A program made the translations under genes and the position numbers. This document shows positions 4,327 through 22,594 of a stretch of 29,501 nucleotides of DNA, piece by piece. The notes beneath the pieces were generated by a model. That model saw only the letters and a list, made by a program, of their open reading frames with translations, had not been told where the DNA came from and did no database searches. The stretch is from positions 1-29,501 of the IMG/VR virus record IMGVR_UViG_3300007519_000053. The stretch is one strand, 5' to 3'. The DNA is from a virus. How positions within the stretch are numbered: the first letter of the stretch is position 1; the number at the start of each line of letters is the position of its first letter.

Positions 4327-4343
4327 TCCCCCTTGCAGGGTAA
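4326..4343. repeat. 18-bp dyad, copy 7 (intergenic)
   Basis: ATCCCCC-TTGC-AGGGTAA. It begins on the last A of the helicase TAA stop and ends 15 bp before ATG 4359, with CAGGAG between. Confidence 0.85.
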
Positions 4344-4358
4344 ACAGGAGAACGAGAT

Positions 4359-4673
4359 ATGTCTTGCCTCACTACGTCGGTAGCGCAAATGCGTTACGAA
4401 GCGGTAACTGAAAAGCATTTGACTGCTATGCTTAACGAACTTGGCGCGGTGGGCATCTGCCCCGAGTGCGCTTTGGATGGCTTGTTGGTCAACATGCTGC
4501 TTACCCAGTTTGCTGAGTGCGGCCAGCCTCTCACTGCCATTTTGGCGCGCCAGTATGCGCGTGCGATAGGCGATAAGGCTCTTTTGTGCGCGCTGGCAGC
4601 GGTGCGTGGCGACGTTCAGCACATCGAAGTGTGGGTGGGTATGCCCGATCCGACGAAGAAGTGCGCGCCATGA
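4359..4673 (+). CDS. Unknown small phage protein, 104 residues
   Basis: The start is supported by CAGGAG at 4345-4350. The protein is helical and Leu/Ala-rich. Four of its five cysteines are at CPEC (about residue 34-37), AEC (near 54) and LLC (near 77), but they do not form an obvious zinc knuckle pair. Its stop overlaps the start of the small membrane protein as ATGA (4670-4673). No known family is recognised. Confidence 0.55.
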   Translation: MSCLTTSVAQMRYEAVTEKHLTAMLNELGAVGICPECALDGLLVNMLLTQFAECGQPLTAILARQYARAIGDKALLCALAAVRGDVQHIEVWVGMPDPTKKCAP

Positions 4674-4904: not shown

Positions 4905-5783
4905 ATGTTCGACGCTAAAACTCTGGCGCAACCGACCAACGTGCTGCGTAGGGCACTGGACGCCAACATCCGCAAAGAGACGCGCATGTGGCCCGTGTTC
5001 GGCGGCGGGCACTTGATGCGCAAGTCCTATGTCTCATCGTCTGAAGTTGGTAAGTGTCTGCGTATGGCGTTCTTCAACAAGCGCTACGATGACTTGGGCT
5101 GCTTCATCGAGGCTGACGACTTGGAGCGTTCCCCTCTGGAGGGGAATATGGACACCCTTCCCAAAGGGTTTATCACGGGGGCAATGCCCGGTAACTGGGG
5201 GTACGCAGAGCGGGGCAACGCTCAAGAAGAATGGCTGGTAACTAAGCTACGGGGTGGCGTGCCGGGGACCAGCTTCATGTTTCTCGGCTCCAACCAAGTT
5301 AGCTTTGTGGACGGCAACAGAAGCGGCACGCCAGACGGTCTGGCGGTACGGCCCAAGGGGGACTTCACCCTTGAGTTTAAGAGCTATGATCCGCGCAAGA
5401 AAATGTCTGGTATGCCTGTCCCCGCTCACATAGCGCAGGTGATCCAGAACACCGACCTCATGCAGATCGCCATGCCAGCGCGAGACCTCGTTGGCGGGCT
5501 GCTGACCTACACAGACGCGTCTGACTTCAATAAGGGTCCAGAGTTTTGGATTGACACAAAAACAGCCGCTGCGAAAGAGTACCTTGCAGACCTCAAGGTA
5601 CGCGCCGATACCGTTTTTACCGCCTCGGCCCCGGACGAAGTGCCAGCCGAAGGCATTCACAACGGAGACTGCCAGTACTGCCCGCACACTGCGCGATGCT
5701 CAGCGGCGGGTACCATGATTAAACAGGAGAAAGAAAACCGTGACCGAGCAATCGACATCGCCCGCACCATCTTCTCTCGATAA
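4905..5783 (+). CDS. Cas4-like PD-(D/E)XK exonuclease with probable Fe-S cluster
   Basis: A 292-residue single-strand or recombination nuclease of the Cas4/RecB type. The nuclease core is visible as RGNAQEEW (103-110), GTPDG with Asp144, LEFK with Glu157 and Lys159, and AQVIQ with Gln178. One cysteine near the N-terminus (Cys51, in SSSEVGKCLR) and three at the C-terminus (CQYCPHTARC: 256, 259, 265) match the four-cysteine 4Fe-4S cluster of Cas4 and AddB proteins. No CRISPR array or other cas gene is near, and such lone phage Cas4-like nucleases usually act in replication and recombination. It is the first gene after the 4814 promoter. SPLEGN near residue 76-81 comes from an 18-bp dyad. Its 3' end overlaps the next gene by 44 bases. 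Confidence 0.85.
   Translation: MFDAKTLAQPTNVLRRALDANIRKETRMWPVFGGGHLMRKSYVSSSEVGKCLRMAFFNKRYDDLGCFIEADDLERSPLEGNMDTLPKGFITGAMPGNWGYAERGNAQEEWLVTKLRGGVPGTSFMFLGSNQVSFVDGNRSGTPDGLAVRPKGDFTLEFKSYDPRKKMSGMPVPAHIAQVIQNTDLMQIAMPARDLVGGLLTYTDASDFNKGPEFWIDTKTAAAKEYLADLKVRADTVFTASAPDEVPAEGIHNGDCQYCPHTARCSAAGTMIKQEKENRDRAIDIARTIFSR
5129..5146. repeat. 18-bp dyad, copy 8 (in gene)
   Basis: TTCCCCT-CTGG-AGGGGAA, fully symmetric arms, inside the Cas4-like gene, read as S-P-L-E-G-N between the first cysteine and the nuclease core. Confidence 0.9.
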
Positions 5784-6157: not shown

Positions 6158-6175
6158 TTCCCCTCTACGGGGGAA
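6158..6175. repeat. 18-bp dyad, copy 9 (intergenic)
   Basis: TTCCCCT-CTAC-GGGGGAA, in the 162-bp gap between 6072 and 6235. Unlike other intergenic copies it is 59 bp from the next start. Confidence 0.85.
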
Positions 6176-7214: not shown

Positions 7215-7232
7215 TTACCCTCTACAGGGGAA
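7215..7232. repeat. 18-bp dyad, copy 10 (intergenic)
   Basis: TTACCCT-CTAC-AGGGGAA, 11 bp before ATG 7244. The following CAGGTG serves as ribosome site. Confidence 0.85.
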
Positions 7233-7501: not shown

Positions 7502-9378
7502 TTACCCAAGCTGCGTCCTACGAGAACACAGAGGCGCTGCTGTCTAAGTCTCGCGCCTCCTGTGTAATGGCTACCAGAGAGCAGGCCATGGCATGGCTGG
7601 CTACCATGGTAGACTTCGCCTTGGACTTCGAGACCACATCGCTGGACCCTCGGGTCGGGCGGGTGCGGCTCACTTCTATCTGCAATGACGACCATCACTT
7701 TATCATTGACCACGATATGTGTGGGCCGCTGTCCGACTACATTCCCCTGCTGAGGGGAAAGCCTACTGGTGCCAAGGTCGTATGGGTGTACAACTCAAAG
7801 TTTGAGACAACGTGGCTCGATCACAACGACCCTCTGTCCTTTGATAGCAGCAAGTGGATCAGGACGCGAGACGTTGACTTTCTAGCCAAGGCGCACATTG
7901 GCGGGCACCCGTCTAGCCTTGCCAAGATGGTCAAGCGCGACCTCAAGGCGATCATAGACAAGCAAGAGCAGAATAGTAACTGGGGCGATCCGTACTTGTC
8001 TCCCTCGCAGCTGGACTACGCAGGTTTCGACAGCTACTTGACGTGGCAGCTCAAGCAGCACTGGTTCGCCAAGCTGGAGCATAGCCAGATCGACGCCGCA
8101 GAGTTTGTCTTTGACTATGCCGTGCGCGGTACTACCGAGTGCGAGCGCACAGGCATAGAGCTGGACGCTGAGTACCACTCTGGCACGGTTAGCTTGTGGG
8201 AGATGAAGCACGCCACGTTCTTGCGGTACATACGCAAACTTACCCCCGAGGGGGTAATAAAGAACCTCAATAGCGACATGCAGATCGGCAAGTATCTTGC
8301 CACCATCCTACCGCAAGAAGTCATAGACCACTGGCCGCGCACTGAGAAGAAGAAGCAGATGCAGTTCGAGGGCAAGTACCTTCGGTCTATATCCAGAAAC
8401 TTCGGGTACCCGTTCTCTCGATGGTTGGCTGCGCTGGCGGGCTACAAGTATTACAGCAAGTACCTGTCCACCTACGGCGACACTCTGCTGAACAAGCAAG
8501 CGCTGAGCGGCGTAGTGACTGCGCGCTATAACATCGCGCAGGCCGCTACAGGGCGCTATTCGTCCGCTAATGTCAACAAGCAGAACATACCACGCAAGCA
8601 GGTGGTGCGCAAAGCCTTCTATGTCTCGGACCCGACACTAGAGCTCTTGTGCCTCGCGGACTACAAAGGCGTAGAGATTAGGGCGCTGGGAGAAATCTCT
8701 GGCGACAAGCAGCTGTTGTATGACGCCACGTACTCAGACGTTCACGCGGCGTCTTGCGCGGCGATTTACGACTACGCTTTGGACTGGGTGCTACAAGTGC
8801 TGAACAGCATGGGCAAGGGAGAGCTGGGAGCCAAGTACATGCTGTTGAAAGAGCAGCGCTCTAAGGCTAAGGGGTTTACCTTCCAGCTTATTTACGGTGC
8901 GGCGGCTGCCGCCCTGTCTGACGTGTTGAAGTGCTCTGTCTCCGAAGCAGAGAGCGCTCTGGACGCTTGGGTTGCTCGCTACCCGAAGGCGTACAACTAC
9001 CGTAACACTATCTATTCGCATATGCAAGTTACCCACGGCTTCATACCTATTGCCGATGGCCGCTCGGTTTACGTGCATCGTGACGACAGGACTATGCCCA
9101 TCGCCGCTAACTACGGCGTGCAAGGCATCGCCGCTTCTGTGATGTATCGGGCAGTCGGTAGGACGCACCGCCTGTTTGTGGAGAGGGACATACCAGCCAA
9201 GCTGGCTGCTACTGTACACGATGAGCTCATATCGCGCTCAGAAACATCCGCCGCAGAAGAGGCGATGGCCGCACAGATCGAGGGCATGACGCAAGCGTGG
9301 CTTGACGTGTTCCCAGGCTCCGACACTGCCAACCTGATTGACTGGAAGATCGGGACTACGTGGGCAGATAAACCGTAA
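7498..9378 (+). CDS. Family A DNA polymerase with 3'-5' exonuclease
   Basis: A 626-residue replicative DNA polymerase. The exonuclease domain has LDFETT (Asp43, Glu45), VYNSKFE (Asn99, Glu103) and DYAGFD (Tyr174, Asp178). The usual Asp of Exo II is Glu103 here. The polymerase domain shows motif A LADYKGVEIRALGE (Asp388), motif B RSKAKGFTFQLIYG (Arg454, Lys458, Phe462, Tyr466) and motif C VHDE (574-576). Motif B positions match E. coli Pol I 754, 758, 762 and 766 with a constant offset of 300, so residue 762 is Phe, as in Pol I itself. There is no 5' nuclease domain, as is normal for phage PolA. Two dyads lie inside it, in different frames (IPLLRGK near 82-88, TPEGVI near 249-254), and a third follows the stop. 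Confidence 0.95.
   Translation: MITQAASYENTEALLSKSRASCVMATREQAMAWLATMVDFALDFETTSLDPRVGRVRLTSICNDDHHFIIDHDMCGPLSDYIPLLRGKPTGAKVVWVYNSKFETTWLDHNDPLSFDSSKWIRTRDVDFLAKAHIGGHPSSLAKMVKRDLKAIIDKQEQNSNWGDPYLSPSQLDYAGFDSYLTWQLKQHWFAKLEHSQIDAAEFVFDYAVRGTTECERTGIELDAEYHSGTVSLWEMKHATFLRYIRKLTPEGVIKNLNSDMQIGKYLATILPQEVIDHWPRTEKKKQMQFEGKYLRSISRNFGYPFSRWLAALAGYKYYSKYLSTYGDTLLNKQALSGVVTARYNIAQAATGRYSSANVNKQNIPRKQVVRKAFYVSDPTLELLCLADYKGVEIRALGEISGDKQLLYDATYSDVHAASCAAIYDYALDWVLQVLNSMGKGELGAKYMLLKEQRSKAKGFTFQLIYGAAAAALSDVLKCSVSEAESALDAWVARYPKAYNYRNTIYSHMQVTHGFIPIADGRSVYVHRDDRTMPIAANYGVQGIAASVMYRAVGRTHRLFVERDIPAKLAATVHDELISRSETSAAEEAMAAQIEGMTQAWLDVFPGSDTANLIDWKIGTTWADKP
7742..7759. repeat. 18-bp dyad, copy 11 (in gene)
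   Basis: TTCCCCT-GCTG-AGGGGAA, fully symmetric arms, in the polymerase exonuclease domain, read as I-P-L-L-R-G-K, a different frame from the S-P-x-E-G copies. Confidence 0.9.
8240..8257. repeat. 18-bp dyad, copy 12 (in gene)
   Basis: TTACCCC-CGAG-GGGGTAA, the longest symmetric copy (8-bp arms around GA), in the polymerase gene between the two catalytic domains, read as T-P-E-G-V-I. Confidence 0.9.
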
Positions 9379-9395
9379 TCCCCTCCAGAGGGTAA
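9378..9395. repeat. 18-bp dyad, copy 13 (intergenic)
   Basis: ATCCCCT-CCAG-AGGGTAA. It begins on the last A of the polymerase TAA stop and ends 14 bp before ATG 9410. Confidence 0.85.
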
Positions 9396-9409
9396 ACAGG
9401 AGACTTACT

Positions 9410-9817
9410 ATGACTGGCTTTGATAAAGACCAACCGTCGTGGTTCGCTGCCGACCGGAAGGAGGTAGCTACAAGTGGCTACGCCATGCTTAACGCGGAGC
9501 AAGGGTTCTGCGACCTACTGACCAACGCTCAACGTCTGGTGGACGAGGCTTACGACACTATTCACGGGACAAACGGAACATCAACGTCCAGTGAAAAGGT
9601 AGAGCAGGCAAAAGTGGTTGTTGATACCATTACTCTGCTGTTTAGCATGTGCAGCGCTCACCATCTGGCTTATGCAGAACGTCTTGAGAGCCTGCGCAAA
9701 ATAACTGAGGCCAGACAACAGCTTTATGTTGATGAGAAGGTTGCTCGCGCAAAATATGAAGAGCTCATGTCTCAGCCTGTGCCAATGCCAGCCGGTCGGT
9801 TTCAGCGTGAGCAATGA
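9410..9817 (+). CDS. Unknown helical protein, 135 residues
   Basis: I start at ATG 9410, after CAGGAG at 9397-9402; the frame is open further upstream only inside the polymerase gene. The protein is almost all helix, with a charged coiled-coil-like C-terminal half (YAERLESLRKITEARQQLYV and onward). It lies between polymerase and RusA-like resolvase. No family is recognised. Confidence 0.6.
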   Translation: MTGFDKDQPSWFAADRKEVATSGYAMLNAEQGFCDLLTNAQRLVDEAYDTIHGTNGTSTSSEKVEQAKVVVDTITLLFSMCSAHHLAYAERLESLRKITEARQQLYVDEKVARAKYEELMSQPVPMPAGRFQREQ

Positions 9818-9839
9818 GCTTGGCGGGCGTGTATTCGGT

Positions 9840-10352
9840 ATGACTGTGCTCTCGCGCAGTATTCCAAAAGGGCGCGCCCGCGTCTCAAAGTCCGGGCATA
9901 TGTACACCCCAGAGCGAACGCGCTTGTTTGAGAAGTACATAGCGAACCTAGCAGCCATGTCTCTGGTCTATAGCATGGCGGAGTATCCCCTCAGCATACG
10001 GGTCGTTGCCGAACAGGTGCCCCCCAAGAGCTGGCCTAAATGGCATAAAGCAGCGGCGGCTGCTGGCCTAGTGTTCCCCTCTGGGGGGGATACTGACAAC
10101 CGTTTGAAGGCAATAAAAGATGCGCTTAACACCATCGTTTACGCCGACGACAAGCAGATACCGGACATTGCCATGTCTGTGCGCTATGGGGTGCGGGACG
10201 TTATCCGCATAGATTTGTACCGGGTCGGCGTCACGCTTGAAGAAGCCAAGGCGCTATACGCGGCGGGGAGGCTTAGCTATGACGAAGTTAATCGACGCGG
10301 CGTTGTCTTGGGCGGGCATGGGAGTGCCGGTGTTCCCATGCGGGACGGATAA
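9840..10352 (+). CDS. RusA-like Holliday junction resolvase
   Basis: A 170-residue protein with the RusA pattern: an N-terminal SIPKGRARVSKSGHMYTPER, then GDTDNRLKAIKDALNTIVYADDKQI at residues 83-107. The acidic residues Asp84, Asp86, Asp94 and Asp103/104, with Lys90, fit the metal-binding site of RusA enzymes, which cut branched DNA made by replication and recombination before packaging. I use ATG 9840; GTG 9807 is an alternative, and neither has a good ribosome site. Its end overlaps the primase gene by 74 bases. FPSGGD just before the catalytic DTDN comes from an 18-bp dyad. Confidence 0.85.
   Translation: MTVLSRSIPKGRARVSKSGHMYTPERTRLFEKYIANLAAMSLVYSMAEYPLSIRVVAEQVPPKSWPKWHKAAAAAGLVFPSGGDTDNRLKAIKDALNTIVYADDKQIPDIAMSVRYGVRDVIRIDLYRVGVTLEEAKALYAAGRLSYDEVNRRGVVLGGHGSAGVPMRDG
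10074..10091. repeat. 18-bp dyad, copy 14 (in gene)
   Basis: TTCCCCT-CTGG-GGGGGAT, in the resolvase gene, read as F-P-S-G-G-D in a third frame, right beside the catalytic DTDN codons. Confidence 0.85.
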
Positions 10353-12285
10353 GGCTCCGCTGGTAGCCACGGGGTTTCACGCTGCGTCCACCGACCCGGA
10401 TGCTGTACGCTCGTTGTTCGCTGGTCACGGTGAAAACATATTCATAGGCGGCGCTATGGGCGGTGACGCTGGCCTGTTCGCCTGTGATTTCGATACCTAC
10501 AAGTCGGGGGCGGCTGGTGCGTCGGCTGCTGCTTTCATGGCAGAGCTGGAAGCGCTAGATATGCTGCCGCCTACGCAGCGCCACCGGACAAAGAGCGGCG
10601 GGCTGCACCTCATCTACGAGAGCCACAACGGCTATCCCAACTGCAAGCCCGTGCCGGGTGTGGAAATCAAGGGGGAGGGCGGGTACATCATCCTGCCCCC
10701 CAGCGCTGGTTATACCATAGAGGACAATGGCGGCTTCTCTGTGGCCCCCAAGGCTTTGGTAGAGCGGCTTATCCACCAGAAGAAGCAGCACACAGCCAAG
10801 ACTGTCAGTCAGCATGAAGACGCGATCATGCGCGCGGTTGACTTTCACGATAGCGTAGCGTCGATGGTCGCAAAGCTGTTCAGACAAGGACAGCCCGCCA
10901 GCGCCGTTATGGCGCGCGTGCTCGCTGCGCTGGGCTCGTCTGTCGCAGCGTCGCCGCAGCACCCGCGACACGCTAGGTGGCTTGCTATCATGCAAGACGA
11001 CAGCGGCGAGCTGGCGCGCATGGTTGGGTCAGGACGGGACAAGTTTGACCTTAACGCTGCGACGCAAGATGCGGCTGACAGTGTGGACCCTGCCATCGCC
11101 GAACGCCTAAAGAGGGCCGCTGCCGCCGCTGGCTTTTACGCCAGCAGCGACACTGCTTATTCCCCTGCGGGGGGTATTGCTCCGCCGCCCAAAGATTACG
11201 GGGACGCTTGGCCGTTTGCAGACGATGGGTACTTTGCCCACGAAGACATAGACGTTGCTAACCAGAAGTTTACCATCTACCCGGTCTACTGCGAGAACGA
11301 AAGCGTTGTCATCGCAGCGGACCCGAAGGCAGGCAAGACCGCGATCAGCCTCAAGCTGGCGTTTGCTCTTGCTTTAGGCAAGTCGATGGGGCCGTTCAGA
11401 ATTACCGAGCCGCGCGGGGTTTTGTACTTCTCGCTGGAGGGTACGAGAGCGGTTAAGCTGCGCCTAGAAGCAGAGAAGCGCTTTCGAAGAGACGCTGGCG
11501 AGACGTTGCCGGATAAAATACCGTTCTTCGTCATAGAGAAGTCTGCTAATTTTATCACGCAGCAAGACGAGCTGGTCGGCAAGATAGTGGCTGCGGACAA
11601 GTGGTACACCAAGGACACGGGGCAACAGCTCGGGCTTATCGTAGTGGACACGTTGACTAAAGCCATGCCCGGCGCAGACCAGAATAGCGTGGACGATACG
11701 TCAAAGCTGTTTGAGCTAACGTCTAAGCTGCGCGACCATGGGGTCACTGCAACGGTGGTCTACATCCACCATACAGGAAAGGATGGCAGGACAAGAGGCT
11801 CATCTAACATCGAGGCGGAAGTCGATGTCGTTCTGAAAGTACACAAGCAGGAAGACGGCTCATCGCTGCTGTCTATCTTCATGGCCCGCAGCATTGACGA
11901 CGTAGGCATGTACAGGTTCGAGCTGCAAAGCTACGATCTGGGAGAGACCACGCAAGGTATCAAGCAGACAGCGCCCGTCGCTGTGCTGACAGAGACCAAG
12001 GAGGCGCAGGGTGAGGTCACAGAGGACGCTAGGCGTGCCCACGTCATCCGCCCGTGGCTCAAGATGCTGGTTAGCGCTGGTCCCGGCAGGTATGACATGG
12101 GCAAGCTGCTAGTGCTTGCTAAGACTGCTCGCCTAATGGCTGGCCGACAGCGGCGTGCTGACATGCTCAAAGTGCTGGATACGATCTTTAACAGGGAGAC
12201 TTCGGTGGTCCACGCTGGGCATGTTATGTCTGTGGAAACGGACGGCGACAGCTACGTAGCCGTCACCGTCCAGTCGATAGGTTGA
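10279..12285 (+). CDS. Primase-polymerase fused to RecA-fold helicase
   Basis: A 668-residue two-domain replication protein. Residues 1-160 match the prim-pol (bifunctional primase/polymerase) domain: GVPVFP, DKAPL, ACDFD (Asp70, Asp72), SGGLH (His110) and GGYIILPPS. Residues 335-530 are a RepA/AAA_25-type ATPase: Walker A ADPKAGKTA (348-356), Walker B LGLIVVDTL (Asp457), then IHHTGKDGRTRGSSN (496-510). It would prime and unwind DNA at the fork with the polymerase encoded upstream. I start at ATG 10279, after GGGGAGG, inside the resolvase gene; 10237 has no ribosome site. SPAGGI in the linker between the domains (near 295-300) is encoded by a dyad. It is the last + strand gene. Confidence 0.9.
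   Translation: MTKLIDAALSWAGMGVPVFPCGTDKAPLVATGFHAASTDPDAVRSLFAGHGENIFIGGAMGGDAGLFACDFDTYKSGAAGASAAAFMAELEALDMLPPTQRHRTKSGGLHLIYESHNGYPNCKPVPGVEIKGEGGYIILPPSAGYTIEDNGGFSVAPKALVERLIHQKKQHTAKTVSQHEDAIMRAVDFHDSVASMVAKLFRQGQPASAVMARVLAALGSSVAASPQHPRHARWLAIMQDDSGELARMVGSGRDKFDLNAATQDAADSVDPAIAERLKRAAAAAGFYASSDTAYSPAGGIAPPPKDYGDAWPFADDGYFAHEDIDVANQKFTIYPVYCENESVVIAADPKAGKTAISLKLAFALALGKSMGPFRITEPRGVLYFSLEGTRAVKLRLEAEKRFRRDAGETLPDKIPFFVIEKSANFITQQDELVGKIVAADKWYTKDTGQQLGLIVVDTLTKAMPGADQNSVDDTSKLFELTSKLRDHGVTATVVYIHHTGKDGRTRGSSNIEAEVDVVLKVHKQEDGSSLLSIFMARSIDDVGMYRFELQSYDLGETTQGIKQTAPVAVLTETKEAQGEVTEDARRAHVIRPWLKMLVSAGPGRYDMGKLLVLAKTARLMAGRQRRADMLKVLDTIFNRETSVVHAGHVMSVETDGDSYVAVTVQSIG
11160..11177. repeat. 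18-bp dyad, copy 15 (in gene)
   Basis: TTCCCCT-GCGG-GGGGTAT, in the primase-helicase gene, read as S-P-A-G-G-I in the linker between the two domains. Confidence 0.85.
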
Positions 12286-14613
12286 TTATTCCCCTTTCAG
12301 GGGGATATTCTGCCCGAAGTTCATCTGGTCCAGCAGCATGGCCTCAGACGGTCCGACCATAGAGCCCATGTAGGCTGCAAGAGGGCTGCTACCTCCTGCG
12401 ATACCGGGCCTCATGTTTGGCGCTTGACTAGCGTTTGTCAGCGACACGTTCATCTTATCCACAGCCTCGCCGGCTGGCGAGCTCAGAAAGTTGGCGCGGT
12501 TGGCGTCCACTCCAGCCAGCCCTTTGATAGACGCTCGTGGCAGCTGCCTACGGAACGCGCCGGCAGCGATTGCGTTTGACATAGCGCCAACGCTACCTGC
12601 GGCGATCATAACGCTGTCGCTGAGCGCTCCCCAAGGATTCCACGGCCTAGATGGAGCCGTAGCGGTGGGTTTGTACATATCGGCCACCTCAGCCTGTCGA
12701 GAGTAATCGCGCAATGCTTTCTGCATGGAGCGCACCATCTTCGGCTCGAACACCTCGTTGAGCCTGCCCAAACTGGCAGACTCATCGGAAAACATAGCCG
12801 CCAGCTGAGCAGGGCTCTTGTTTCTGGTCGCGTCGTACAGCGCCGACTTGACCCCTTCCTGAAACGCGGCGTGCTCCGACGCACTCTTGCTGGTTGACGT
12901 GACAAAGATGTCAAAGGGCAAGCTATCCGTGTCCGCTTTGAGGTATGCGTCGCGACCTGCCTGATAAGCGTTCTGCGTCATAGACACACCTCCGAACGAG
13001 GCGTCAATGTCTTTCAGCTCGGGGGCTACTTGATGCAGCCGCTTGTTAAGGCGGGCGCGCAGTGGCAGCAGCATAGTCACCACCTCGGCCTTTTCTTGCG
13101 AGCTCATGTTTGAAAACGCGCTGCCGTCGCGGGCGCTGCCCGTCATCAGGGAGTCCAGCTGCTTTCGCAAGTCGAGCAAATCAGACGGCGCGTAAGTGCG
13201 CTCTATGCCCTTTCTAGGTTTGCCTGCTTGCGGCCCTTTTGTATGTGGCTTCGGCGAGGTGCGGGCGGCACCTAGTAGATTGTTCTTCAGCTCTCCGTAC
13301 ATGGCAAGGGCGCGCGGTGTCTTTGGCTTGCCGCCGCCGGGACGCACGAACCCCCTGTTTAGCATCCTGTGCAGGGCTACAACAGGGGTGACGTTCTTTA
13401 CATTGGCGCGGAGTGCCCGGTCGTATTGGGGGGTAAGCTCTTCAAACTTCGCTCGGCTAGCCGCGTGCATAGATATGGGGCTCTGCACTGTGGATGAGCC
13501 GAACACCTCTACCATAGTCCTACGCGGACCTTCTTGCGCCGACTCATAGCGGTTGCGCAGCATAGTGCGCAAAGGCTCTACGGCGTCGATCCTTTTGGTA
13601 TCAGTCTGCGCCATAAGGTCGTCTATCTGCCCCTTAACGCGGTGCGGCATAAGGTCTGCCAGCACTGCGCCGGGGGGCAGGTCTAGCAGCTTGGCAGTTT
13701 CGGCTATGGCTTCTGCGTTGATCCCAAGAACACCGCTCGGCAAGACTTCCATAAAGGCATCACCATCGTTTTGCCGAATACTGTCGCGCACGGCAATAGC
13801 AGCCGTGTTGTCAGGATCGCGCAGCCCCGCTTTGCGAGCTACGTACTTGACGCCGTGGTCAAACACCGCCTCAGCTGCGAGCGTGCCTACAGCGCCCGCG
13901 CCAAAGCCATAGAGGGCTGCGACGTATGGATTTCCCTGCTGCGTGGCAACCGAATAGGCGGCGCTTTCCCCAGCACCGACAACGCCCATACCAAGCGCCC
14001 GCGTGACCATGTTGTTCTTGAACAGGCCAGCGCCGTATTGCGTCAGGGCGTTTATGCCTTTCACCCCTGCTATGCCCACCCGAGCGGGAATACCGCCGGG
14101 GGTCAGCGCTCCTGCTAGTTCCCCGACCAGATTTGACGAACTGTTCAGCCCTTCACTGACCGCTGCCATCCGCTTTCCCGGAGGCCCTGCGAAGGGGTCG
14201 CGGGCAATGGACGCAAGGCCCAGCACAGGGTTGAGGAGCCCGCCAGTGTATCCCTGCGCTACGCCAACAGCTGTGCCCAGAGCTATTCCACCGTCAGAGT
14301 CGTCGGGGCCTCTGCGGGCAAAGTAGTCAGCAGTCGCACCGAGCGCGCCCACGGTGGTTCTGCTCATCATATCGGTCCATGCCGTTGCCAGCTTTCCCCT
14401 CTTGGGGGTATTCTCGTAGACCCTATCCTCGTCGCGCTTCTTGTCGTAGGCAAGGTCTTCGCCCCGATCAAGAGCTTTGAAGAAGGCGGCTTGGTCTGCA
14501 AGCCGCTGCATATCTTGCTCAGCGGCTTGCGGGACCAGCGCAGGAAACGGCTGAGACTTGGGCGATGGCGCAGGCGCAGTGGCGGGCATTGGCTGGGGAG
14601 GGCCGGGCATCAT
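12286..14613 (-). CDS. Probable ejection (internal virion) protein, 775 residues
   Basis: The last gene of the structural operon. A Pro/Ala-rich N-terminus is followed by a charged region, then several long Gly/Ala-rich hydrophobic stretches at about residues 105-260 (GGIALGTAVGVAQGYTGGLL and GNPYVAALYGFGAGAVGTLA are examples) and one near 690 (SVMIAAGSVGAMSNAIAAGA). The rest is helical and charged. Large helical proteins with hydrophobic, membrane-compatible stretches at this place in the operon fit the T7 gp14-gp16 class, which are injected to build a channel across the cell envelope. It starts in an ATGA overlap with the 1261-residue gene. It ends N-I-P-L-K-G-E on a dyad, directly against the stop of the + strand primase gene. 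Confidence 0.6.
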   Translation of the reverse strand: MMPGPPQPMPATAPAPSPKSQPFPALVPQAAEQDMQRLADQAAFFKALDRGEDLAYDKKRDEDRVYENTPKRGKLATAWTDMMSRTTVGALGATADYFARRGPDDSDGGIALGTAVGVAQGYTGGLLNPVLGLASIARDPFAGPPGKRMAAVSEGLNSSSNLVGELAGALTPGGIPARVGIAGVKGINALTQYGAGLFKNNMVTRALGMGVVGAGESAAYSVATQQGNPYVAALYGFGAGAVGTLAAEAVFDHGVKYVARKAGLRDPDNTAAIAVRDSIRQNDGDAFMEVLPSGVLGINAEAIAETAKLLDLPPGAVLADLMPHRVKGQIDDLMAQTDTKRIDAVEPLRTMLRNRYESAQEGPRRTMVEVFGSSTVQSPISMHAASRAKFEELTPQYDRALRANVKNVTPVVALHRMLNRGFVRPGGGKPKTPRALAMYGELKNNLLGAARTSPKPHTKGPQAGKPRKGIERTYAPSDLLDLRKQLDSLMTGSARDGSAFSNMSSQEKAEVVTMLLPLRARLNKRLHQVAPELKDIDASFGGVSMTQNAYQAGRDAYLKADTDSLPFDIFVTSTSKSASEHAAFQEGVKSALYDATRNKSPAQLAAMFSDESASLGRLNEVFEPKMVRSMQKALRDYSRQAEVADMYKPTATAPSRPWNPWGALSDSVMIAAGSVGAMSNAIAAGAFRRQLPRASIKGLAGVDANRANFLSSPAGEAVDKMNVSLTNASQAPNMRPGIAGGSSPLAAYMGSMVGPSEAMLLDQMNFGQNIPLKGE
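12289..12306. repeat. 18-bp dyad, copy 16 (at the arm junction)
   Basis: TTCCCCT-TTCA-GGGGGAT. It encodes the last residues of the - strand gene and begins 3 bp after the + strand primase stop, in a third frame. It marks the exact point where the two arms meet. Confidence 0.85.
14394..14411. repeat. 18-bp dyad, copy 17 (in gene)
   Basis: TTCCCCT-CTTG-GGGGTAT, in the N-terminal part of the 775-residue protein, read on the - strand as T-P-K-R-G-K. Confidence 0.85.
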
Positions 14614-17600
14614 TTAGCCTCTCTTCTGATAGACTCAAGGCGGGCGTCAAGTTTCTTGGCCGTCTGGTAGGTAATAGCGCCGTTGTTGCTGACGACCTTG
14701 ATAAGCGTTGTATCGGTTATGTTTCCGCTGGCACGGTCAGCAGTGTACTTATCGTATAGGGCGCGGCTCTTCGTCGGGTCTCCAACAGTCCCAGCACCGT
14801 CGAACGTCGGGATGAGGTCAGGTGCTTTCTCATGGATTGCGTTGCTGATAAAGTCACTCATGCGCTTCGGATCAGACAACAGCGTCGGATCATTTTCGTA
14901 GAGCATCATATACTCTTGCTTTGCGTCGATAGCAATGCCTTCGATGATAGACATACGAACAATACGCTGAGCGAGCGCGTGCTGAGTGGTGACAGGGTCC
15001 GTAGTTGAGGGCATAGGCTGCAAGTACTTTGCGCCTTCCCAGTCAGACTGCTGGCCGACGCCGATAGTGCGCATAGCGCTGATAAACTGACCTTCGGCGG
15101 CGTCCACCATAGCAAGGTAGATGCGGGACGGTTCCGTGAGAATAGCGTCCGCAGCGCCTTTACCAAGCACGTCGTTGGCAAAAGACGACAGCGGCGCTAG
15201 TACTGCCGCAGTGAACGGGCCAGAAGAAAATTCTCCCTCTGCGGCCATAGTGGCGAGACCGTCCATAGCCGTAACCATGAGCGAACGGTTATCGTGCGTC
15301 TCACGCTGCGCCACAAGGCCGTCGGCCATCCCTTTCCGCAGGGTCGTGGCGATCTCTAGGCCGAACCCGCCCGGAAGCGCAGACATTTCCTTGGCGATGC
15401 GGAACACGTCGTCGTCTTTGATATACCGCTCAAGAGTCTTGATGCCCTCTGGCGTGCCGTACTCGTCATTGACGCCGCGCAGGACGTTCTTAAACTCCTC
15501 TGGCGTCGCCGCAGTCTGCAACGCCTCACGCACCGCGTCCCGCTTATCCGCAGGAAACAGCATACTCATGCGGTCGCCCATCTGGAACATGCGCTCCGTC
15601 TCGGCTGCGATAGCGTCAGACTCAACCTTGGCCGTTCTACTGGCCGCTAAGTCGTTTCTATCAAACTGTACAGTAGCGGCGTCAGTATCAGCGACAATAC
15701 GGCGATCTTGCGCCGAGACATTGTTAGCATTGGCAAGTTCCGCAGCCGCAATCTGCGCAGCAAAGCCATTTGCTTGCAAAGCGCTAGCCGTGCCAAACCC
15801 GAGCTCAGAGTCCCTAACAGCAGCATCGTCCGCAATCTTAGCAGCTTGCGCCTGTCGTGCCGCGTCTGTCGCAAGCTGAGAGGCGCGCGACCGTGCATCC
15901 GTTAGGTTGATCCTGTTTTCTGCGTTCTCATTGTCAAGATACGCCTGCTCGGTCCGCGCCAAAGATGCGGCAGCAGCAGCAGCGTCGCTGCGCGCCTTGT
16001 CTACCCTGAGCTGGTTTTGGGCGTCGCGCTCTGCGTTGACCGCCTCAGCGGTCATGTTGAGGTCCGCGTCCAGACGCAGGCGGGCCTCAGTGGTCTTGAG
16101 CTCTGACGCCTCGCGCAGCGAAGCGTTGAGCAGGGCGAGTTTAGTGGCGCTCTGGTCCACAGCATAAGCGCGCTTTGCATCCGACACTCTATTCTCAGCT
16201 GCTTGTGTGCGGATACGCGCCTCGTTTACCTTGATTTGGGCTGCGGTGTCGATACCAGAAGTCTCCGCAGCGGCGGTGCTCGCGGTTTGTGCGGCGGCTA
16301 GGCGCACCTCTTCGTCGCGCGCAGCCTGGCTCACAGCAGCGGCTTTGGTGCCCTCTCGCACAGAGATAGCAGCAATGGCTTCGTTCATAAGGATAGGGTT
16401 GCCAGAGTTTATGGCTTCCTTCTCTGGGTCCGTAGCGGTCTTCAACGCAGCGGCAATCATCCCCTCTGTAGGGTAACTTGCGTTCACAGCGGGCAGATTT
16501 GTACCTTGCAGTGCCTCACGCAGAGCCTTAACAGCGTCCGTCGACGGGTTGGCGGTTGCCGCGCTTATCAGCGCGGCAACCGCTGGGTTAGCTCCCTGCT
16601 CTACCAGTGAGCGGGCGTTGAACCACTCAGAAATTGCGCCAACCTCGTTGCGGTTAGCTCTGTTCTCGATGGCGGCAGCTCGGTACGCCATCACAATCCC
16701 GTCGGCCTCATTAGGGCGGGTAAGCTGATCTGCAAGCTCTTCCGCTGTAGCGTCGGGCATAGCTGCGCGCAGCGCTTCCTTAGCCGCTTGTTCACTGGTC
16801 GCCATGCTGACGGGTCGGTTAGGCTGCTCTTTTGCCAGCTCGTCCGTGCGCGCTTTGGCAGCGTCGTAGGCGGTTGGGTCTGCGGCGGGGCCAGCTCGCA
16901 GAGTGGCTGCGTCTGTGGAGCGCCCCATGCGATCAAGGATTGCGGACCACTCAATGTCTGACCCGCGCTGATCTATGGCGCTAAGCCCGGTCGCCACTTG
17001 ATCGCCAAAGCGACTAGAAATAGAAGCGTAGCTGTTGGGGTCTTTGTCCAGACTGTCGGCAGCGCGGAGCATAGCAGCACTGACGCTAGGGCCGTACAAG
17101 GCGGCAGCAGCGCGCAAGTCTGCGGCAAAGCCGGGGGCTGCGGCAATGTTCTGATCTCGCGCCAGAGAAGCGCTGGCTGCGTTGTCGCCACCGGCTTTCG
17201 GCTTAGACGCATCTCTGTATATCGCGCCCGCCAGCTCGGTGTTGTCATTGAGGGAAAGATTGGCGAGGTCGGGAAACCCCATGGCGGTGTACATATCCGC
17301 AGTCGCTTGATTTTGCGCTACTCTGGCGCGCTGCTTAGCCGCTGCCAGCTTCTCTTCAAGCTTGTACTTGCGTTCGGTGTCTGCCCGAGACAGGTCGTTG
17401 CCAAACTGGTCTTTCATGTACTGGCTGGCAACACCCATGGCGGCGCTAGAACCCTCGTCGCCACCAAAAGTCACCATAGCCGCTAGGGCTGGCTTCCCAG
17501 CTTTCTTGAAGTGCTCTGCCAATGCTGACCGCTGCTTCACTTTCTGCGCCTGCGCAGCTTCTTTGTCGGCTTTGTTCTGCGCGGCTGCGCGGCGCTCACG

Positions 17601-18395
17601 CTGAGCGCCGATAACGCCGCCCACGTTGACAGGCTGATTGGAGCCCATCTGACCGAGGCCAACAGACAAGATTTCAAGCATGTCAGCCGCCATCAGGCGG
17701 CGCTTGGTGGTATTCGGGTCGGTCTCATCTTTCGAGGCCTGCGCCGCCTGCGCCACTTCTTGTATGGTGCTGAACCCGTCAGACGGGTCGAGGCCGTGCT
17801 TACCGGCAAGAAAGCTGTTTGCCTCGCCCACAGCGCCGTTCAGGATTGCAGACGCAGGAGTGCCGTCCTCTCCAGCAGGGAGCGTGCTATTGATCTGCTC
17901 GTCGGTAGCGCCGCCCACTGTACGCACAATCCCCTCCACAGGGGAAGCTGGCACATGCTCAGCGCCAGTCATCGCAGCGTAAACCTGCCCGCCGTAATCG
18001 GCGCGCTTCGGGATGTGTTTCGCTGCTGGGCGCTCGTAATTCTGGGCAACGTCTAGCGCTGCGGTACGCGGGTTATCAGCGTTCTTGAACGTGTCGTACG
18101 CTCGGGACTCGGTGCCACCAAACTCACGGACCATGAAACGGGCCTGCGTCATCAGGTCGTCAGCGCTTGCCCCTTCTTGCTCCGCAAACGCTCGCAAGTC
18201 GTCCGCGCGAGAGCCGCGCCATTGTGCAATCCCAACCGCTCCCTCACCCTCATTGACGGCCATAGGGTCGCCGTTGCTTTCGGCCAGCACGTTGCCCAGA
18301 AGGCCAGAAGCGCCTGCGGGGGACATGCCCACGCCTGCGCCAGTGAAGTACTTGTACAGCTCGTCAAAGTTGTCTCGGTTAGGAAGTTTTGCCAT
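14610..18395 (-). CDS. Large ejection protein with N-terminal tail lysozyme
   Basis: At 1261 residues this is the largest product in the window. Residues 1-145 match the phage tail lysozyme type (Phage_lysozyme2): PAGASGLLGNVLAESNGDP with probable catalytic Glu39, then EGAVGIAQWRGSRADDLRAF. It should cut peptidoglycan during DNA entry. A linker containing SPVEGI (encoded by a dyad) joins it to a very long Ala-rich region, with coiled coil strongest at about residues 640-900 and dense in Ala, Glu, Arg and Asp. In T7 the muralytic domain is in gp16, at the N-terminus of a similarly large injected protein, so this is probably the functional counterpart, with a different enzyme fold. A GGGAGG site precedes ATG 18395. 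A second dyad encodes YPTEGM. Confidence 0.75.
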   Translation of the reverse strand: MAKLPNRDNFDELYKYFTGAGVGMSPAGASGLLGNVLAESNGDPMAVNEGEGAVGIAQWRGSRADDLRAFAEQEGASADDLMTQARFMVREFGGTESRAYDTFKNADNPRTAALDVAQNYERPAAKHIPKRADYGGQVYAAMTGAEHVPASPVEGIVRTVGGATDEQINSTLPAGEDGTPASAILNGAVGEANSFLAGKHGLDPSDGFSTIQEVAQAAQASKDETDPNTTKRRLMAADMLEILSVGLGQMGSNQPVNVGGVIGAQRERRAAAQNKADKEAAQAQKVKQRSALAEHFKKAGKPALAAMVTFGGDEGSSAAMGVASQYMKDQFGNDLSRADTERKYKLEEKLAAAKQRARVAQNQATADMYTAMGFPDLANLSLNDNTELAGAIYRDASKPKAGGDNAASASLARDQNIAAAPGFAADLRAAAALYGPSVSAAMLRAADSLDKDPNSYASISSRFGDQVATGLSAIDQRGSDIEWSAILDRMGRSTDAATLRAGPAADPTAYDAAKARTDELAKEQPNRPVSMATSEQAAKEALRAAMPDATAEELADQLTRPNEADGIVMAYRAAAIENRANRNEVGAISEWFNARSLVEQGANPAVAALISAATANPSTDAVKALREALQGTNLPAVNASYPTEGMIAAALKTATDPEKEAINSGNPILMNEAIAAISVREGTKAAAVSQAARDEEVRLAAAQTASTAAAETSGIDTAAQIKVNEARIRTQAAENRVSDAKRAYAVDQSATKLALLNASLREASELKTTEARLRLDADLNMTAEAVNAERDAQNQLRVDKARSDAAAAAASLARTEQAYLDNENAENRINLTDARSRASQLATDAARQAQAAKIADDAAVRDSELGFGTASALQANGFAAQIAAAELANANNVSAQDRRIVADTDAATVQFDRNDLAASRTAKVESDAIAAETERMFQMGDRMSMLFPADKRDAVREALQTAATPEEFKNVLRGVNDEYGTPEGIKTLERYIKDDDVFRIAKEMSALPGGFGLEIATTLRKGMADGLVAQRETHDNRSLMVTAMDGLATMAAEGEFSSGPFTAAVLAPLSSFANDVLGKGAADAILTEPSRIYLAMVDAAEGQFISAMRTIGVGQQSDWEGAKYLQPMPSTTDPVTTQHALAQRIVRMSIIEGIAIDAKQEYMMLYENDPTLLSDPKRMSDFISNAIHEKAPDLIPTFDGAGTVGDPTKSRALYDKYTADRASGNITDTTLIKVVSNNGAITYQTAKKLDARLESIRREAK
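16459..16476. repeat. 18-bp dyad, copy 18 (in gene)
   Basis: ATCCCCT-CTGT-AGGGTAA, in the middle of the 1261-residue gene, read on the - strand as Y-P-T-E-G-M. Confidence 0.85.
17929..17946. repeat. 18-bp dyad, copy 19 (in gene)
   Basis: ATCCCCT-CCAC-AGGGGAA, read on the - strand as S-P-V-E-G-I, exactly at the end of the tail lysozyme domain. Confidence 0.9.
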
Positions 18396-18399
18396 GACG

Positions 18400-19092
18400 T
18401 TACTTGCCTCCCAATGCCGCAGACCCGAGCCCGGTGGCTAGGCTCAAGTAATCAAACATACCCGGCTGGCTTCGCGAGGTCTTTGTCACGTTTTGATTCA
18501 GGGGGCTACCGCCAAGCCCAGCCATAATCAAGTCGAGCATCTGCTGCGGTCGCGCTGCGACCTGCTGGTACTGAATGTCGCCTGCGTCAAGGATGCCCTG
18601 AGCGGACTGCTGCTGCTGTGAGCCGAACGCGGCCTGCCCACCAGAAATCTGCTGGCCTAAGCCGAAGCCCTGCATACCTGCGCCTTGCAGCCCACCCAGA
18701 CTGGCTAACCGCTGTTGCCCGGCAGCCTGCGCCATGTTCCCTGCGGTCTGAAAACCTTGCTGGTACAGGTTGGCAGAAGTTTCAGCGGTTGTGCGGCCAT
18801 AGGCGTCCATAACCTGCGACTCTACCAAGCCGTGCCGTGAACCGCCAAACGCGCCAGCCTGCGCAGCCTGACCGCGAACATTGTTGAGGTCCATCCCACG
18901 CTGCTCGTCTATCCTGCCAAGCGCCTTGTTAAGCACGTTCTCTTGGTAGGGAGACGCATAGGAGTTCATGCTGCGGCGGAACGCTCCGGGCGCAGACATA
19001 CCAGAGAACCCCTGACCAGCGCCTTGCAGCGCACGGCTGCTTGCCCCGTAAATGTTCCCCCCTTGAGGGGAATAGCCTGCTCCACCGCTCAT
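18400..19092 (-). CDS. Probable ejection protein, gp14-like
   Basis: A 230-residue protein rich in Gly, Gln, Ala and Ser. Residues 40-90 include NSYASPYQENVLNKALGRID and GAFGGSRHGLVES. The pattern of a Pro-Tyr near the N-terminus, a helix, and then a GAFGGSR segment is one I associate with short phage ejection proteins next to the large lysozyme-bearing ones. The C-terminus has a short hydrophobic stretch (YLSLATGLGSAALGG) that could touch a membrane. It starts after AAAGGACA, 11 bp after the preceding stop, and ends 4 bp before the 1261-residue gene. SPQGGN near residue 8 is encoded by a dyad. Confidence 0.6.
   Translation of the reverse strand: MSGGAGYSPQGGNIYGASSRALQGAGQGFSGMSAPGAFRRSMNSYASPYQENVLNKALGRIDEQRGMDLNNVRGQAAQAGAFGGSRHGLVESQVMDAYGRTTAETSANLYQQGFQTAGNMAQAAGQQRLASLGGLQGAGMQGFGLGQQISGGQAAFGSQQQQSAQGILDAGDIQYQQVAARPQQMLDLIMAGLGGSPLNQNVTKTSRSQPGMFDYLSLATGLGSAALGGK
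19055..19072. repeat. 18-bp dyad, copy 20 (in gene)
   Basis: TTCCCCC-CTTG-AGGGGAA, at the 5' end of the gp14-like gene, read on the - strand as S-P-Q-G-G-N. Confidence 0.9.
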
Positions 19093-19103
19093 TATAATGT
19101 CCT

Positions 19104-19739
19104 TTACTTTGAGCCAGGCTCGCCACTGGTGCCACCTAGGCCGTAATCGTCTGGGCCGAAACTACCAGAGTTGCCGCTGTCGCTGCCACCGCTGTCCATG
19201 CTGCCGTAATCGTCTGGGCCGTCGTAGTCGTAGTTGCTGTTGTCGCTGCCACCGCTGTCCATGCTGCCGCTGCTTTGTTGCCCCATGACCTGCTGCGGCT
19301 GTTCGCCGTTCATGCCCTTGCCGCCACCGTACACTGGCTGATACAACGGCGACTGCTCATCGTAGTACTGTCCGGTTGTAGGGTCTGCATAAAGCAAGGC
19401 AAGAGACCGGCGCATTTCCGGCGACATAGACTCGTTCATGTTGCGATCAAACACACCAGCTGGGGAGTACCCAAGAAATCCGGCGGAGTCGCGCTGAGGT
19501 GCAGGCATGTAGCCGTCAGATGGCGAAGCCTGCATACCCAGCGCCGAAGCAGCGCTTTGGTTGTTGTTGCGCGCGTCGATCTGCCCCGGAGCCTCTGCCG
19601 CGAACACCGTACCTCGGTTGGGCATGTACGGCAAACGTGCGGCAAGCGCCCCATAGTCTAGGGCGTCCACACTGGCCTCGGTAAGCCGGGGGTCAATTTT
19701 GGTTTCAGCAGTGTCCTTGCCAGCTTTGCTCGACCCCAC
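19104..19739 (-). CDS. Low-complexity virion protein with Gly/Ser/Asp repeats
   Basis: A 211-residue protein. I start it at GTG 19739, because AAGGAG lies seven bases upstream and the preceding stop ends at 19741, leaving one base between genes; longer starts lie within the previous gene. The first 150 residues are polar with no clear domain. The last 60 are low-complexity, with two copies of a 21-residue Gly/Ser/Asp/Tyr unit (GSMDSGGSD, then GPDDYGS) encoded by a 63-bp tandem repeat. It sits among ejection protein genes. The acidic, flexible tail could help order in the virion or be a passive spacer. Function is not recognised. Confidence 0.6.
   Translation of the reverse strand: MGSSKAGKDTAETKIDPRLTEASVDALDYGALAARLPYMPNRGTVFAAEAPGQIDARNNNQSAASALGMQASPSDGYMPAPQRDSAGFLGYSPAGVFDRNMNESMSPEMRRSLALLYADPTTGQYYDEQSPLYQPVYGGGKGMNGEQPQQVMGQQSSGSMDSGGSDNSNYDYDGPDDYGSMDSGGSDSGNSGSFGPDDYGLGGTSGEPGSK
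19141..19266. repeat. 63-bp tandem repeat, two units
   Basis: Units 19141-19203 and 19204-19266 share CCGTAATCGTCTGGGCCG at one end and TGTCGCTGCCACCGCTGTCC near the other, and differ in the middle. 63 bp is 21 codons, so the frame is kept and the copy number can vary without breaking the gene. Confidence 0.8.
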
Positions 19740-19740
19740 G

Positions 19741-20352
19741 TTACAGCTCCTTATACATTGTAGACATGACGTGCTCCCAACCGCGCGGCTTGAGCTCACG
19801 AGCCCACCCAGTCCGACCAGAAATAGTCAGATGCTTACAGCCCATGGAGCGTGCCTGCTGCGCTATGTACTCTTCGGCGTCTTTTATGGTCTGCATGTCA
19901 CCCGCAGCGATGAAGCAGTGATAAGTAGAGTACTGAGGGAACACGCAGTACTGCATCAGGACAACAGCATCGTCGTATTCGTAGACGTGTATCTGACGGG
20001 CAGCAACCTTAGCTACAACGTCGTCAAAGACGTACTGGCCTTTTGCGTGGCGCAGGGCCTCGTCAATCTGCTCCTTCCACTTGAGCAGCACAGCCATGAT
20101 GACCGTGACGTACGCAGCTGCGTTGTCGCGGTTGTGGTCTATGGGCTTCAACATACCCTCTGTAGGGGAAGGTGCCGCCTGAGCGCTGGTCGCTATGTCG
20201 ATGCGGCGCTTGGCAGCGTCGTCCATAGGTGCCTCGTCTGCAAGTGACCTGCGGGCTCGATCTGCCAAGCGGTGATGCGCGGTCCAGGTATTCTCGGACT
20301 GAAGCCTGTTCTGCATACTGGACAGATAGTCAGTTTGTGGCGCGCCGCTCAT
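19741..20352 (-). CDS. GNAT-fold protein, T7 gp13-like internal virion protein
   Basis: 203 residues. The N-terminal 75 are polar and helical, with a linker carrying SPTEGM from a dyad. Residues 80-203 look like a GNAT acyltransferase fold, with a long central region and the ending AEEYIAQQARSMGCKHLTIS, then GRTGWARELKPRGW. That GR-GW-R-LK pattern is one I know from phage proteins related to T7 gp13, an internal virion protein. Whether it still binds acetyl-CoA is unclear. It overlaps the upstream gene by four bases (20349-20352) and starts after AGGAG. It heads the ejection gene cluster. Confidence 0.6.
   Translation of the reverse strand: MSGAPQTDYLSSMQNRLQSENTWTAHHRLADRARRSLADEAPMDDAAKRRIDIATSAQAAPSPTEGMLKPIDHNRDNAAAYVTVIMAVLLKWKEQIDEALRHAKGQYVFDDVVAKVAARQIHVYEYDDAVVLMQYCVFPQYSTYHCFIAAGDMQTIKDAEEYIAQQARSMGCKHLTISGRTGWARELKPRGWEHVMSTMYKEL
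20153..20170. repeat. 18-bp dyad, copy 21 (in gene)
   Basis: ATACCCT-CTGT-AGGGGAA, in the linker of the GNAT-fold protein, read on the - strand as S-P-T-E-G-M. Confidence 0.85.
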
Positions 20353-21059
20353 TGTGTAACTCCTGTTAGGCGCACGGTCAGCGCGCTTAGTTTGCTCTCT
20401 ACGCCTGTGATTGTCGTTGGGGCGCCAAAGAACGAGGCCCCAGTCACAGATGTCATAAGAGCATAGGTACCGCCGTCAGCTGGGACTTCCAACGTGCCGG
20501 ATACTGGCACATGGATTTGCGATTGCCCAGCCTTGCATAGCATCTGACCCATACCACGCCCAACCGGAGTTGTCAACGCTGACGCTTCTGCGATGTAAGA
20601 CGCTGCGGTCACAGCGTCTCCTGACGACACGTACAAGGTAAAGTATCCTTCAAGCAGGTACATTCCCCCTAAGAGGGTAATCTCGTAGGTGCTGGCGTTA
20701 AACGATCCCCACACAGGGTCGTCACTGAGCGACGTAGGTAGTGGCACGCGGTTCGCGCCCACAGAAGCGGCGAACGTGGTCGAGACAGTGTTGGTGACAA
20801 ACAGCCCTGCGCTGACAGTCTCTTGGTTAGGGATTACCCAAGACGCTCCGTCAGAGTGTACTGGCACACCCACTGCAGGGTCGTACAACAGCACCCCGGC
20901 TATTGACGCACGCTCAATAAGGTCCGTCATGCGCCAGCGAAGCAGAGGTGACACAGGCCGCAGGGTCTCCTCTGCGTACCCTCCTCCGGCCACGTCTGCC
21001 TCGTAGACGGCGCGCGCCCACGCATCAATGGACATCAGCCGTGGGTTGGGAATACTCAT
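20349..21059 (-). CDS. Probable tail or virion surface protein, 236 residues
   Basis: Residues 1-60 are helical and charged (MSIDAWARAVYEADVAGGGY). The rest is beta-rich with many Thr, Val, Gly and Ser, ending in alternating strands (TYALMTSVTGASFFGAPTTI). It has four-base overlaps with the neighbours at both ends, so it is coupled with the tail/nozzle gene upstream. An 18-bp dyad encodes ITLLGGM. The beta-rich fold and place in the operon point to a tail component. No specific family is recognised. Confidence 0.55.
   Translation of the reverse strand: MSIPNPRLMSIDAWARAVYEADVAGGGYAEETLRPVSPLLRWRMTDLIERASIAGVLLYDPAVGVPVHSDGASWVIPNQETVSAGLFVTNTVSTTFAASVGANRVPLPTSLSDDPVWGSFNASTYEITLLGGMYLLEGYFTLYVSSGDAVTAASYIAEASALTTPVGRGMGQMLCKAGQSQIHVPVSGTLEVPADGGTYALMTSVTGASFFGAPTTITGVESKLSALTVRLTGVTQ
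20663..20680. repeat. 18-bp dyad, copy 22 (in gene)
   Basis: TTCCCCC-TAAG-AGGGTAA, read on the - strand as I-T-L-L-G-G-M. Confidence 0.85.
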
Positions 21060-22576: not shown

Positions 22577-22594
22577 TTACCCTCCAAGGGGGAA
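22577..22594. repeat. 18-bp dyad, copy 24 (intergenic, over a ribosome site)
   Basis: TTACCCT-CCAA-GGGGGAA. Read on the - strand, GGAGGG in this copy is the ribosome site of the nozzle gene, three bases plus spacing before ATG 22573. Binding here could directly affect translation or transcription. Confidence 0.85.

Follow-up and report, generated by a model that had tools for sequence, protein, structure and literature searches.

Dispersed DNA repeats have been described in several groups of phages. The nearest report that we found in a non-exhaustive literature search for phage dyads that are dispersed or evenly spaced concerns the 17-bp dyads of the Cluster O mycobacteriophages Corndog and Firecracker; Corndog has 34 copies throughout its genome, about one third of them in coding regions, and the authors, who report no integrase, expect the binder to be a dimer and assign no function (PMC4351075). 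The stoperators of Cluster A mycobacteriophages (L5, TipsytheTRex) are 13-bp, asymmetric, monomer-bound sites oriented with transcription, in temperate phages that have a known repressor (PMC9283540, PMC6550527). The SPbeta repeated element (SPBRE), a 15-bp motif of prophage promoter regions with about ten binding peaks, was known from in silico analysis well before MrpR, a protein with a tyrosine-recombinase fold, was identified as its binder (PMC10516654), and Microbacterium Cluster EG phages carry 18-bp inverted repeats (GATCAACC-N2-GGTTGATC) in 8–10 copies that lie at the right end of the genome, typically 14–22 bp upstream of starts (PMC7302621). Here we describe an 18-bp dyad that is repeated about 30 times in the viral record IMGVR_UViG_3300007519_000053 of IMG/VR, which was analysed entire (29,501 bases; hereafter ‘the window’) and is probably a genome fragment. 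As read from their sequences, the copies form one discrete family of DNA sites of the dimer-bound type, conserved and evenly spaced, which lie in both genome arms, within genes and between them.

The pattern WWMCCC-N6-GGGKWW has 27 strict matches in the window, with 0.06 expected from shuffled sequence. A half-site matrix built from these 27 sites scores above 13 at 30 places; outside them, scores above 4.1 come solely from copies of the same sites shifted by one base, and the reversed control reaches a maximum of 8.3. The three additional sites (starting at 23714, 26517 and 28955) miss the strict pattern and are included in all window counts unless stated otherwise (n = 30). The half-site consensus is (A)WT(C/A)CCC(T/C). 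When gaps of 4–9 bp were tried between.T[AC]CCC and its complement, 28 pairs were found at 6 bp, one at 7 bp and none at any other gap; by simple arithmetic, this places the two half-sites about one helical turn apart. Chance and codon usage were rejected as the source of the dyads, on the excess of strict matches, on the matrix scores and on the control words described below.

The two halves of a site vary independently. At position 3 (C or A) they are paired in 16 of the 30 sites, compared with 16.8 expected from shuffled halves, and no variable pair, either in the window or in the array of its relative G001 (see below), has a significant excess of paired halves (smallest P 0.22). Two variable pairs show a deficit, namely position 1 of the window sites (P 0.04) and position 6 of the G001 sites (20 of 50 paired, 26.3 expected; P 0.03). 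Such independence, at a near-constant spacing of the half-sites, is expected where a protein dimer binds double-stranded DNA. RNA folding of seven strands returned z-scores of −2.54 and −0.70 (the + and − strands of a copy at the junction of the two arms), 1.03, −0.56, 0.01, −2.15 (16452–16482, − strand) and −0.12; given this scatter, hairpin strength is no general property of the sites, though the junction copy is among the stronger ones. No Rfam family reached its gathering score anywhere in the window. An RNA hairpin or terminator was rejected on the lack of covariation, on the folds and on the terminator and Rfam scans, and we predict that the sites are very probably DNA sites bound by a dimer.

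Selection on the sites could be followed in G005 (contig IMGVR_UViG_3300037325_000089), a relative at about 94% (93–96% identical over the main blocks) whose 30.2 kb hold 32 strict sites, and whose gene calls are unusable in the first 4.2 kb. With gaps counted as changes, and with positions 2, 4–6, 13–15 and 17 taken as the core, there is a single change in 240 core positions, compared with 21/300 at the other site positions, 178/3323 in the flanks and 1619/28,236 over everything outside the sites. Control words outside the sites are changed at 25/424 (T.CCC) and 17/360 (GGG.A), together 42/784. The conservation of the core is significant against both the flanks (one-sided Fisher P 4e-5) and the control words (P 1e-4). 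Substitutions within intragenic sites, a small set, number 10 nonsynonymous and 7 synonymous (9 to 7 by codon); genome-wide, the changed codons are 496 nonsynonymous and 892 synonymous. Judged by this comparison, the dyad is a selected element with a conserved core and a freely drifting centre.

The sites are also evenly spaced. The coefficient of variation (CV) of the spacing, which random placement puts at about 0.95–0.97, is 0.49 for the window sites and 0.54 for those of G001; neither value was reached in 5000 simulations each. In G011, a second distant relative whose motif was refined to 6- or 7-bp gaps after a first count had been seen, 20 sites give a CV of 0.41 versus 0.93 for random placement (0/5000 simulations). 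Evenness is unchanged for the 27 strict window sites alone (CV 0.493, 0/5000). With a preference for gene ends built into the simulations, which was done for the window and G011, the observed evenness was matched in 0/5000 and 1/5000 runs, respectively; gene-end preference does not explain the even spacing in these two. Imposing a minimum distance between sites (2000 simulations each) gave P values of 0.0005 (100 bp) and 0.004 (200 bp) for the window, and of 0 (100 bp) and 0.0015 (160 bp) for G001.

Array-bearing relatives are few, namely G005, G001 and G011. Sites that resemble GTCCCY-N6-RGGGAC with up to 3 mismatches number 50 in G001 (IMGVR_UViG_3300019849_000002; 42,745 bases, 71% in the head protein), and of the 20 sites in G011 (IMGVR_UViG_3300009002_000070, 19,786 bases; polymerase 60–61%), 16 have a gap of 7 bp and 4 a gap of 6 bp. 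The relatives' contigs were gene-called piecewise, which cut a few G001 genes. The arrays of the relatives thus differ in base preference or half-site spacing. Across 13 shared genes, sites coincide within one residue at 6/11 (window and G011), 3/9 (window and G001) and 2/14 (G011 and G001), setting aside unalignable window sites (1 versus G011 and 3 versus G001); over a wider gene set, the union of two comparisons, the window and G001 coincide at 4/13. The coincidence expected by chance is about 1% (arithmetic). Some site positions therefore look old while the base preference has shifted, and others look to have turned over.

Outside these relatives, the exact window motif was found once, in L052, among the loci collected at that point. 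A search for 4+4 palindromes in loci of at least 9 kb returned solely the window, G005 and G001 contigs and a tandem repeat in L018/L093; L005, a near-identical 10-kb piece with 9 sites, was not flagged, and short loci can therefore be missed by this search. GCCAG-N7-CTGGC in L016/L018 was likewise rejected as a dyad array, being a tandem repeat. No palindromic array was found in G002, G003 or G004, with the pieces of each searched together. In G002 (L092, L093) and G003 (L094–L096), sister contigs of 39–42 kb that share replication genes, the hexamer CTGACT occurs 156 and 163 times, counting both strands, with some copies in tandem clusters; the coding/template/intergenic counts are 74/48/34 in G002 and 73/44/32 in G003 (L094 and L095 only). 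The same hexamer is present 12 to 20 times in the window, G011, G001, G005 and G004, and 0 times in L007 and L009. Near-identical copies of GGATTCCCCTNTCCAGGGGAATGA were seen in a Roizmanbacteria metagenome-assembled genome and an Ectothiorhodospiraceae one (L159; L180, L191, L196), where they are probably a separate, longer repeat.

How does this array compare with the described ones? The Cluster O dyads share with it their symmetry, a variable centre, 30 or so copies or more, and a distribution both intergenic and intragenic. Their sequence, TGTTCGG-N3-CCGAACA with arms invariant in 34 sites, differs from the degenerate WWMCCC/GGGKWW arms and 6-bp centre of the window, and the window array is therefore of the same kind and not a member. 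They are also denser at one genome end, in contrast to the even spacing of the window sites, and the window differs further in having relatives that vary in base preference and half-site spacing. Like the Cluster A stoperators, the window has more than 20 sites across the genome, with motifs that are similar and not identical between related phages; unlike them, its sites are two-fold symmetric without a clear orientation bias (8 C/T and 6 A/G by the asymmetry of position 3, over 29 gene-assigned sites). SPBRE is comparable in being a site that recurs along a phage genome, but the centres of 20 of the 30 window sites fall in genes, and the PHROG and Pfam scans of part of the genes (see below) turned up no tyrosine-recombinase-like repressor of the MrpR type. 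The Cluster EG repeats are likewise 18-bp dyads repeated in a phage genome, yet few, confined to one end and placed before starts. The start-associated sequences (SAS/ESAS) sit at translation starts, whereas just 12 of the 30 window sites lie within 30 nt of any gene start or stop, with a subset in leaders in G005. The window array belongs to none of the families compared here and, by analogy, would work most like the Cluster O case.

One copy had drawn attention to the family. In the window, where genes were called by a simple script, all called genes up to position 12285 are on the + strand and all from 12286 are on the − strand. The last gene of the + arm (10330–12285, within a longer open reading frame (ORF) from 10237) is primase/helicase-like (phrog_906, 1.1e-20), and its TGA stop at 12283–12285 directly adjoins the TAA stop at 12286–12288 of a 775-aa − strand ORF (12286–14613) that matches no PHROG family at 1e-3. 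The first-pass annotation had described this gapless convergence, the dyad TTCCCCTTTCAGGGGGAT at 12289–12306 within the end codons of the − strand gene, and the lack of an ordinary terminator, and all three hold. The dyad supplies the codons of the C-terminal IPLKGE, the last six residues of the 775-aa ORF. Three terminator-like sites are present in 11500–13100 (shuffles 1.0, sd 1.1), all away from the junction (12201–12219 and 12208–12220 on the + strand, 12812–12798 on the − strand), and the junction dyad has no T run after either side and so does not qualify as an intrinsic terminator. In G005 this copy has an intact core and two amino-acid changes in its centre (L to P, K to Q). No near DNA match to 10237–14613 was found among 50,697 phage records.

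That annotation had also singled out the junction copy as a good place to test a roadblock role against converging polymerases. A special job for this copy is not supported: it is one of about 30 along both arms. The convergent genes of G011 overlap by 7 nt (8360–10360 / 10354–12501) and those of G001 by 17 nt (35093–37156 / 37140–39080), and the array sites nearest to these junctions start at 10071 (G011) and 37360 (G001), both more than 200 nt away. Perfect dyads with arms of at least 5 bp within 60 nt of the junction are absent from G011 and number one, unrelated, in G001. Since the convergent arms of both distant relatives are gapless or overlapping and lack a family dyad at that point, the junction needs no special element, and a junction-specific role was rejected. 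The junction is a feature common to these genomes; the dyad at the junction is not. At the site density of the window, the chance that a site centre lies within 30 nt of a given point is about 6%, and together with the enrichment of sites at gene ends this makes the place of the dyad unremarkable. The site lies in the unalignable C-terminal end of the − strand protein. What remains of the roadblock proposal is its general part, in that the dyad is a selected element and a bound protein could in principle block a polymerase.

The + arm holds replication genes (helicase, Cas4/RecE-like, DNA polymerase, RusA-like and primase/helicase) and the − arm virion genes (major head protein, scaffold and portal), as assigned by PHROG matches; the portal is 25–29% identical to those of 20 listed records out of 292 matching phage records, from phages of Sulfitobacter, Rhizobium, Vibrio and others. 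Ten sites are intergenic, at 496–513, 966–983, 1791–1808, 4326–4343, 6158–6175, 7215–7232, 9378–9395, 22577–22594, 23714–23731 (weaker, score 17.1) and 25137–25154, the last just past the major head protein gene. In the + arm, further sites lie over the stop of the gene at 999–1568 (1556–1573), in genes at 2079–2096 and 2911–2928, in the Cas4/RecE-like gene (5129–5146), twice in the DNA polymerase gene (7742–7759, which aligns with a G011 site, and 8240–8257), in the RusA-like gene (10074–10091, which aligns with G001 and G011 sites) and in the primase/helicase gene (11160–11177). Pairwise alignments of the Cas4-like gene conflict, in that the window site meets both the G011 and the G001 site, which miss each other. 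Besides the junction copy, sites within − arm genes are found at 14394–14411, 16459–16476, 17929–17946 (aligning with a G011 site), 19055–19072 (aligning with G001 and G011 sites), 20153–20170 (a G011 site within one residue), 20663–20680, 21379–21396, 24088–24105 (which carries the sole core change in G005, synonymous and at position 2), 26517–26534 (scaffold gene; weaker, score 13.7), 27159–27176 (scaffold gene; a G001 site within one residue) and 28955–28972 (portal gene; score 23.9, off the strict pattern).

Some copies are part of a longer arrangement, in which the dyad is followed by the Shine-Dalgarno-like AGGAGA and an ATG. Five near-identical leaders of this form are present in G005 (L090, at 319, 1009, 1328, 1798 and 2166), and the window has two (494–538 and 964–1008) and a weaker third (4324–4368); these leaders look like gene-cassette boundaries. 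Two other repeats were seen in the window, namely a GCC-rich, low-complexity coding repeat at its left end (1–181; rich in Ala, Arg and Asp by eye) and, in a 211-aa ORF, two direct 38-nt copies (19169–19206 and 19232–19269; 95% alike, starts 63 nt apart).

We favour the reading that the window carries an array of dimer-binding sites that organise or silence the phage genome, and give this statement as a whole an even chance (a probability of roughly 0.5). About 30 sites some 1 kb apart would be bound by a symmetric dimer on double-stranded DNA, probably phage-encoded and occupying the whole array; once occupied, the array would be a nucleoprotein ladder of regular pitch that gives the genome its organisation and may also keep it quiet. 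If polymerases were affected where the arms meet, this would be a side effect of the ladder. A genome-wide action is preferred over action on single promoters because the even spacing runs through genes, because the sites have no clear orientation, and because they occupy early and late arms alike. Such action could be organisation, insulation or silencing, with a roadblock as one possible mode; that the array is mainly architectural is a tentative part of the reading, with slightly less than an even chance.

Several observations weigh against this reading. PHROG scans, which covered 28 of the 32 genes called in the window and 11 of the 56 called in G001, and Pfam scans of 10 proteins from the window and 20 from G001 brought up no significant match to a DNA-binding regulator. 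Alignments of shared proteins (A3–A6) and PDB sequence searches gave no binder candidate either; two labels, phrog_20051 ‘DNA binding protein’ at 4359–4673 (E 0.23) and an H-NS N-terminus in a G001 protein (E 0.07), were sub-threshold. Firecracker, the best precedent, is not even when measured here (34 exact sites, CV 1.02, P 0.69). The P value for evenness in the window rises to as much as 0.0085 with a 230-bp minimum distance, and the first count in G011, for which the 18-bp form was used, yielded 12 sites that are not evenly spaced (CV 0.79, P 0.37). The sister genomes G002 and G003 are without a palindromic array. Enrichment at gene ends (12/30 sites within 30 nt, 2.8 expected) also fits gene regulation, as do six G001 sites in the divergent region 11893–13803 (L087), between a − strand gene beginning at 11848 and the terminase gene. 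Finally, protein gaps fall within the 9-residue stretch around intragenic window sites in 8 of 12 cases versus G001 (3.1 expected, same genes) and 5 of 12 versus G011 (3.3 expected), which may reflect insertion for some sites, or indel-prone loops.

The alternative that survives best, and which we consider unlikely, is a stoperator-like roadblock, in which a phage repressor at each site stops elongation, silences the genome and incidentally separates the arms. Stoperators bring elongation to an end at numerous sites (PMC9283540), and the spread of the window sites through both arms resembles theirs; the missing terminator at the junction and the enrichment at gene ends would also suit a roadblock. 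Known stoperators, however, are asymmetric and oriented, and their reversal is reported to abolish silencing, whereas the window sites are symmetric and their orientation is unclear (8 versus 6 of 29). Among the scanned proteins of the window, itself a fragment, and of G001 there is neither a repressor with a helix-turn-helix plus stoperator domain nor an integrase, and G001 and G011 have no site at their own gapless junctions.

Operators or start-associated signals that control how transcription or translation starts at neighbouring genes are an improbable explanation of the array as a whole. One third of the sites are intergenic, although only 4.3% of the window is noncoding, and the five G005 leaders and the six sites in the G001 divergent region would be natural places for such signals; by eye, that region, in which all six sites are intergenic by call, is the densest 2 kb of G001. 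Against this, 20 of the 30 window sites are centred inside genes, 18 have no gene end within 30 nt, and operators would not be expected to be regularly spaced.

Quite improbable is the exploitation by the phage of sites for a host nucleoid or partition factor. Differing hosts could give the differing base preferences of related phages, and the scanned proteins include no phage binder. When genome contigs were scanned with one exact form of the site, however, no cellular stretch with such an array was found among the matches listed, which cover at least 118 loci and have at most 3 copies per 8-kb locus. RNA hairpins that act as terminators, processing sites or mRNA stabilisers, which the GC arms and the two low z-scores would suit, can be dismissed as very improbable in view of the absent covariation, the commonly mismatched arms, the other five folds (z −0.70 to 1.03), the lack of a T run at the junction copy and of any Rfam match, and a centre that drifts around a fixed core.

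In its boldest form, which is speculative and which we think improbable as it stands, the preferred reading of a dimer-bound array would describe an uncultured tailed-phage lineage with a ladder of dimer sites pitched at about one kilobase, whose evenness is selected while positions, base preference and half-site spacing drift, and which would serve as a phage-encoded, chromatin-like device that packages or insulates the whole genome and not as a gene-by-gene regulator. In sister phages, the dense, asymmetric word CTGACT may have taken the place of this ladder. The window and its relatives provide a second lineage with dispersed dyads, in which even spacing, conserved cores and a base preference that shifts between relatives offer a comparative handle; this handle argues for a DNA-binding dimer that acts genome-wide and against terminators, and makes the question of the Cluster O repeats testable. 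If the chromatin-like reading were true, these phages would encode a system that packages or insulates their entire genome.

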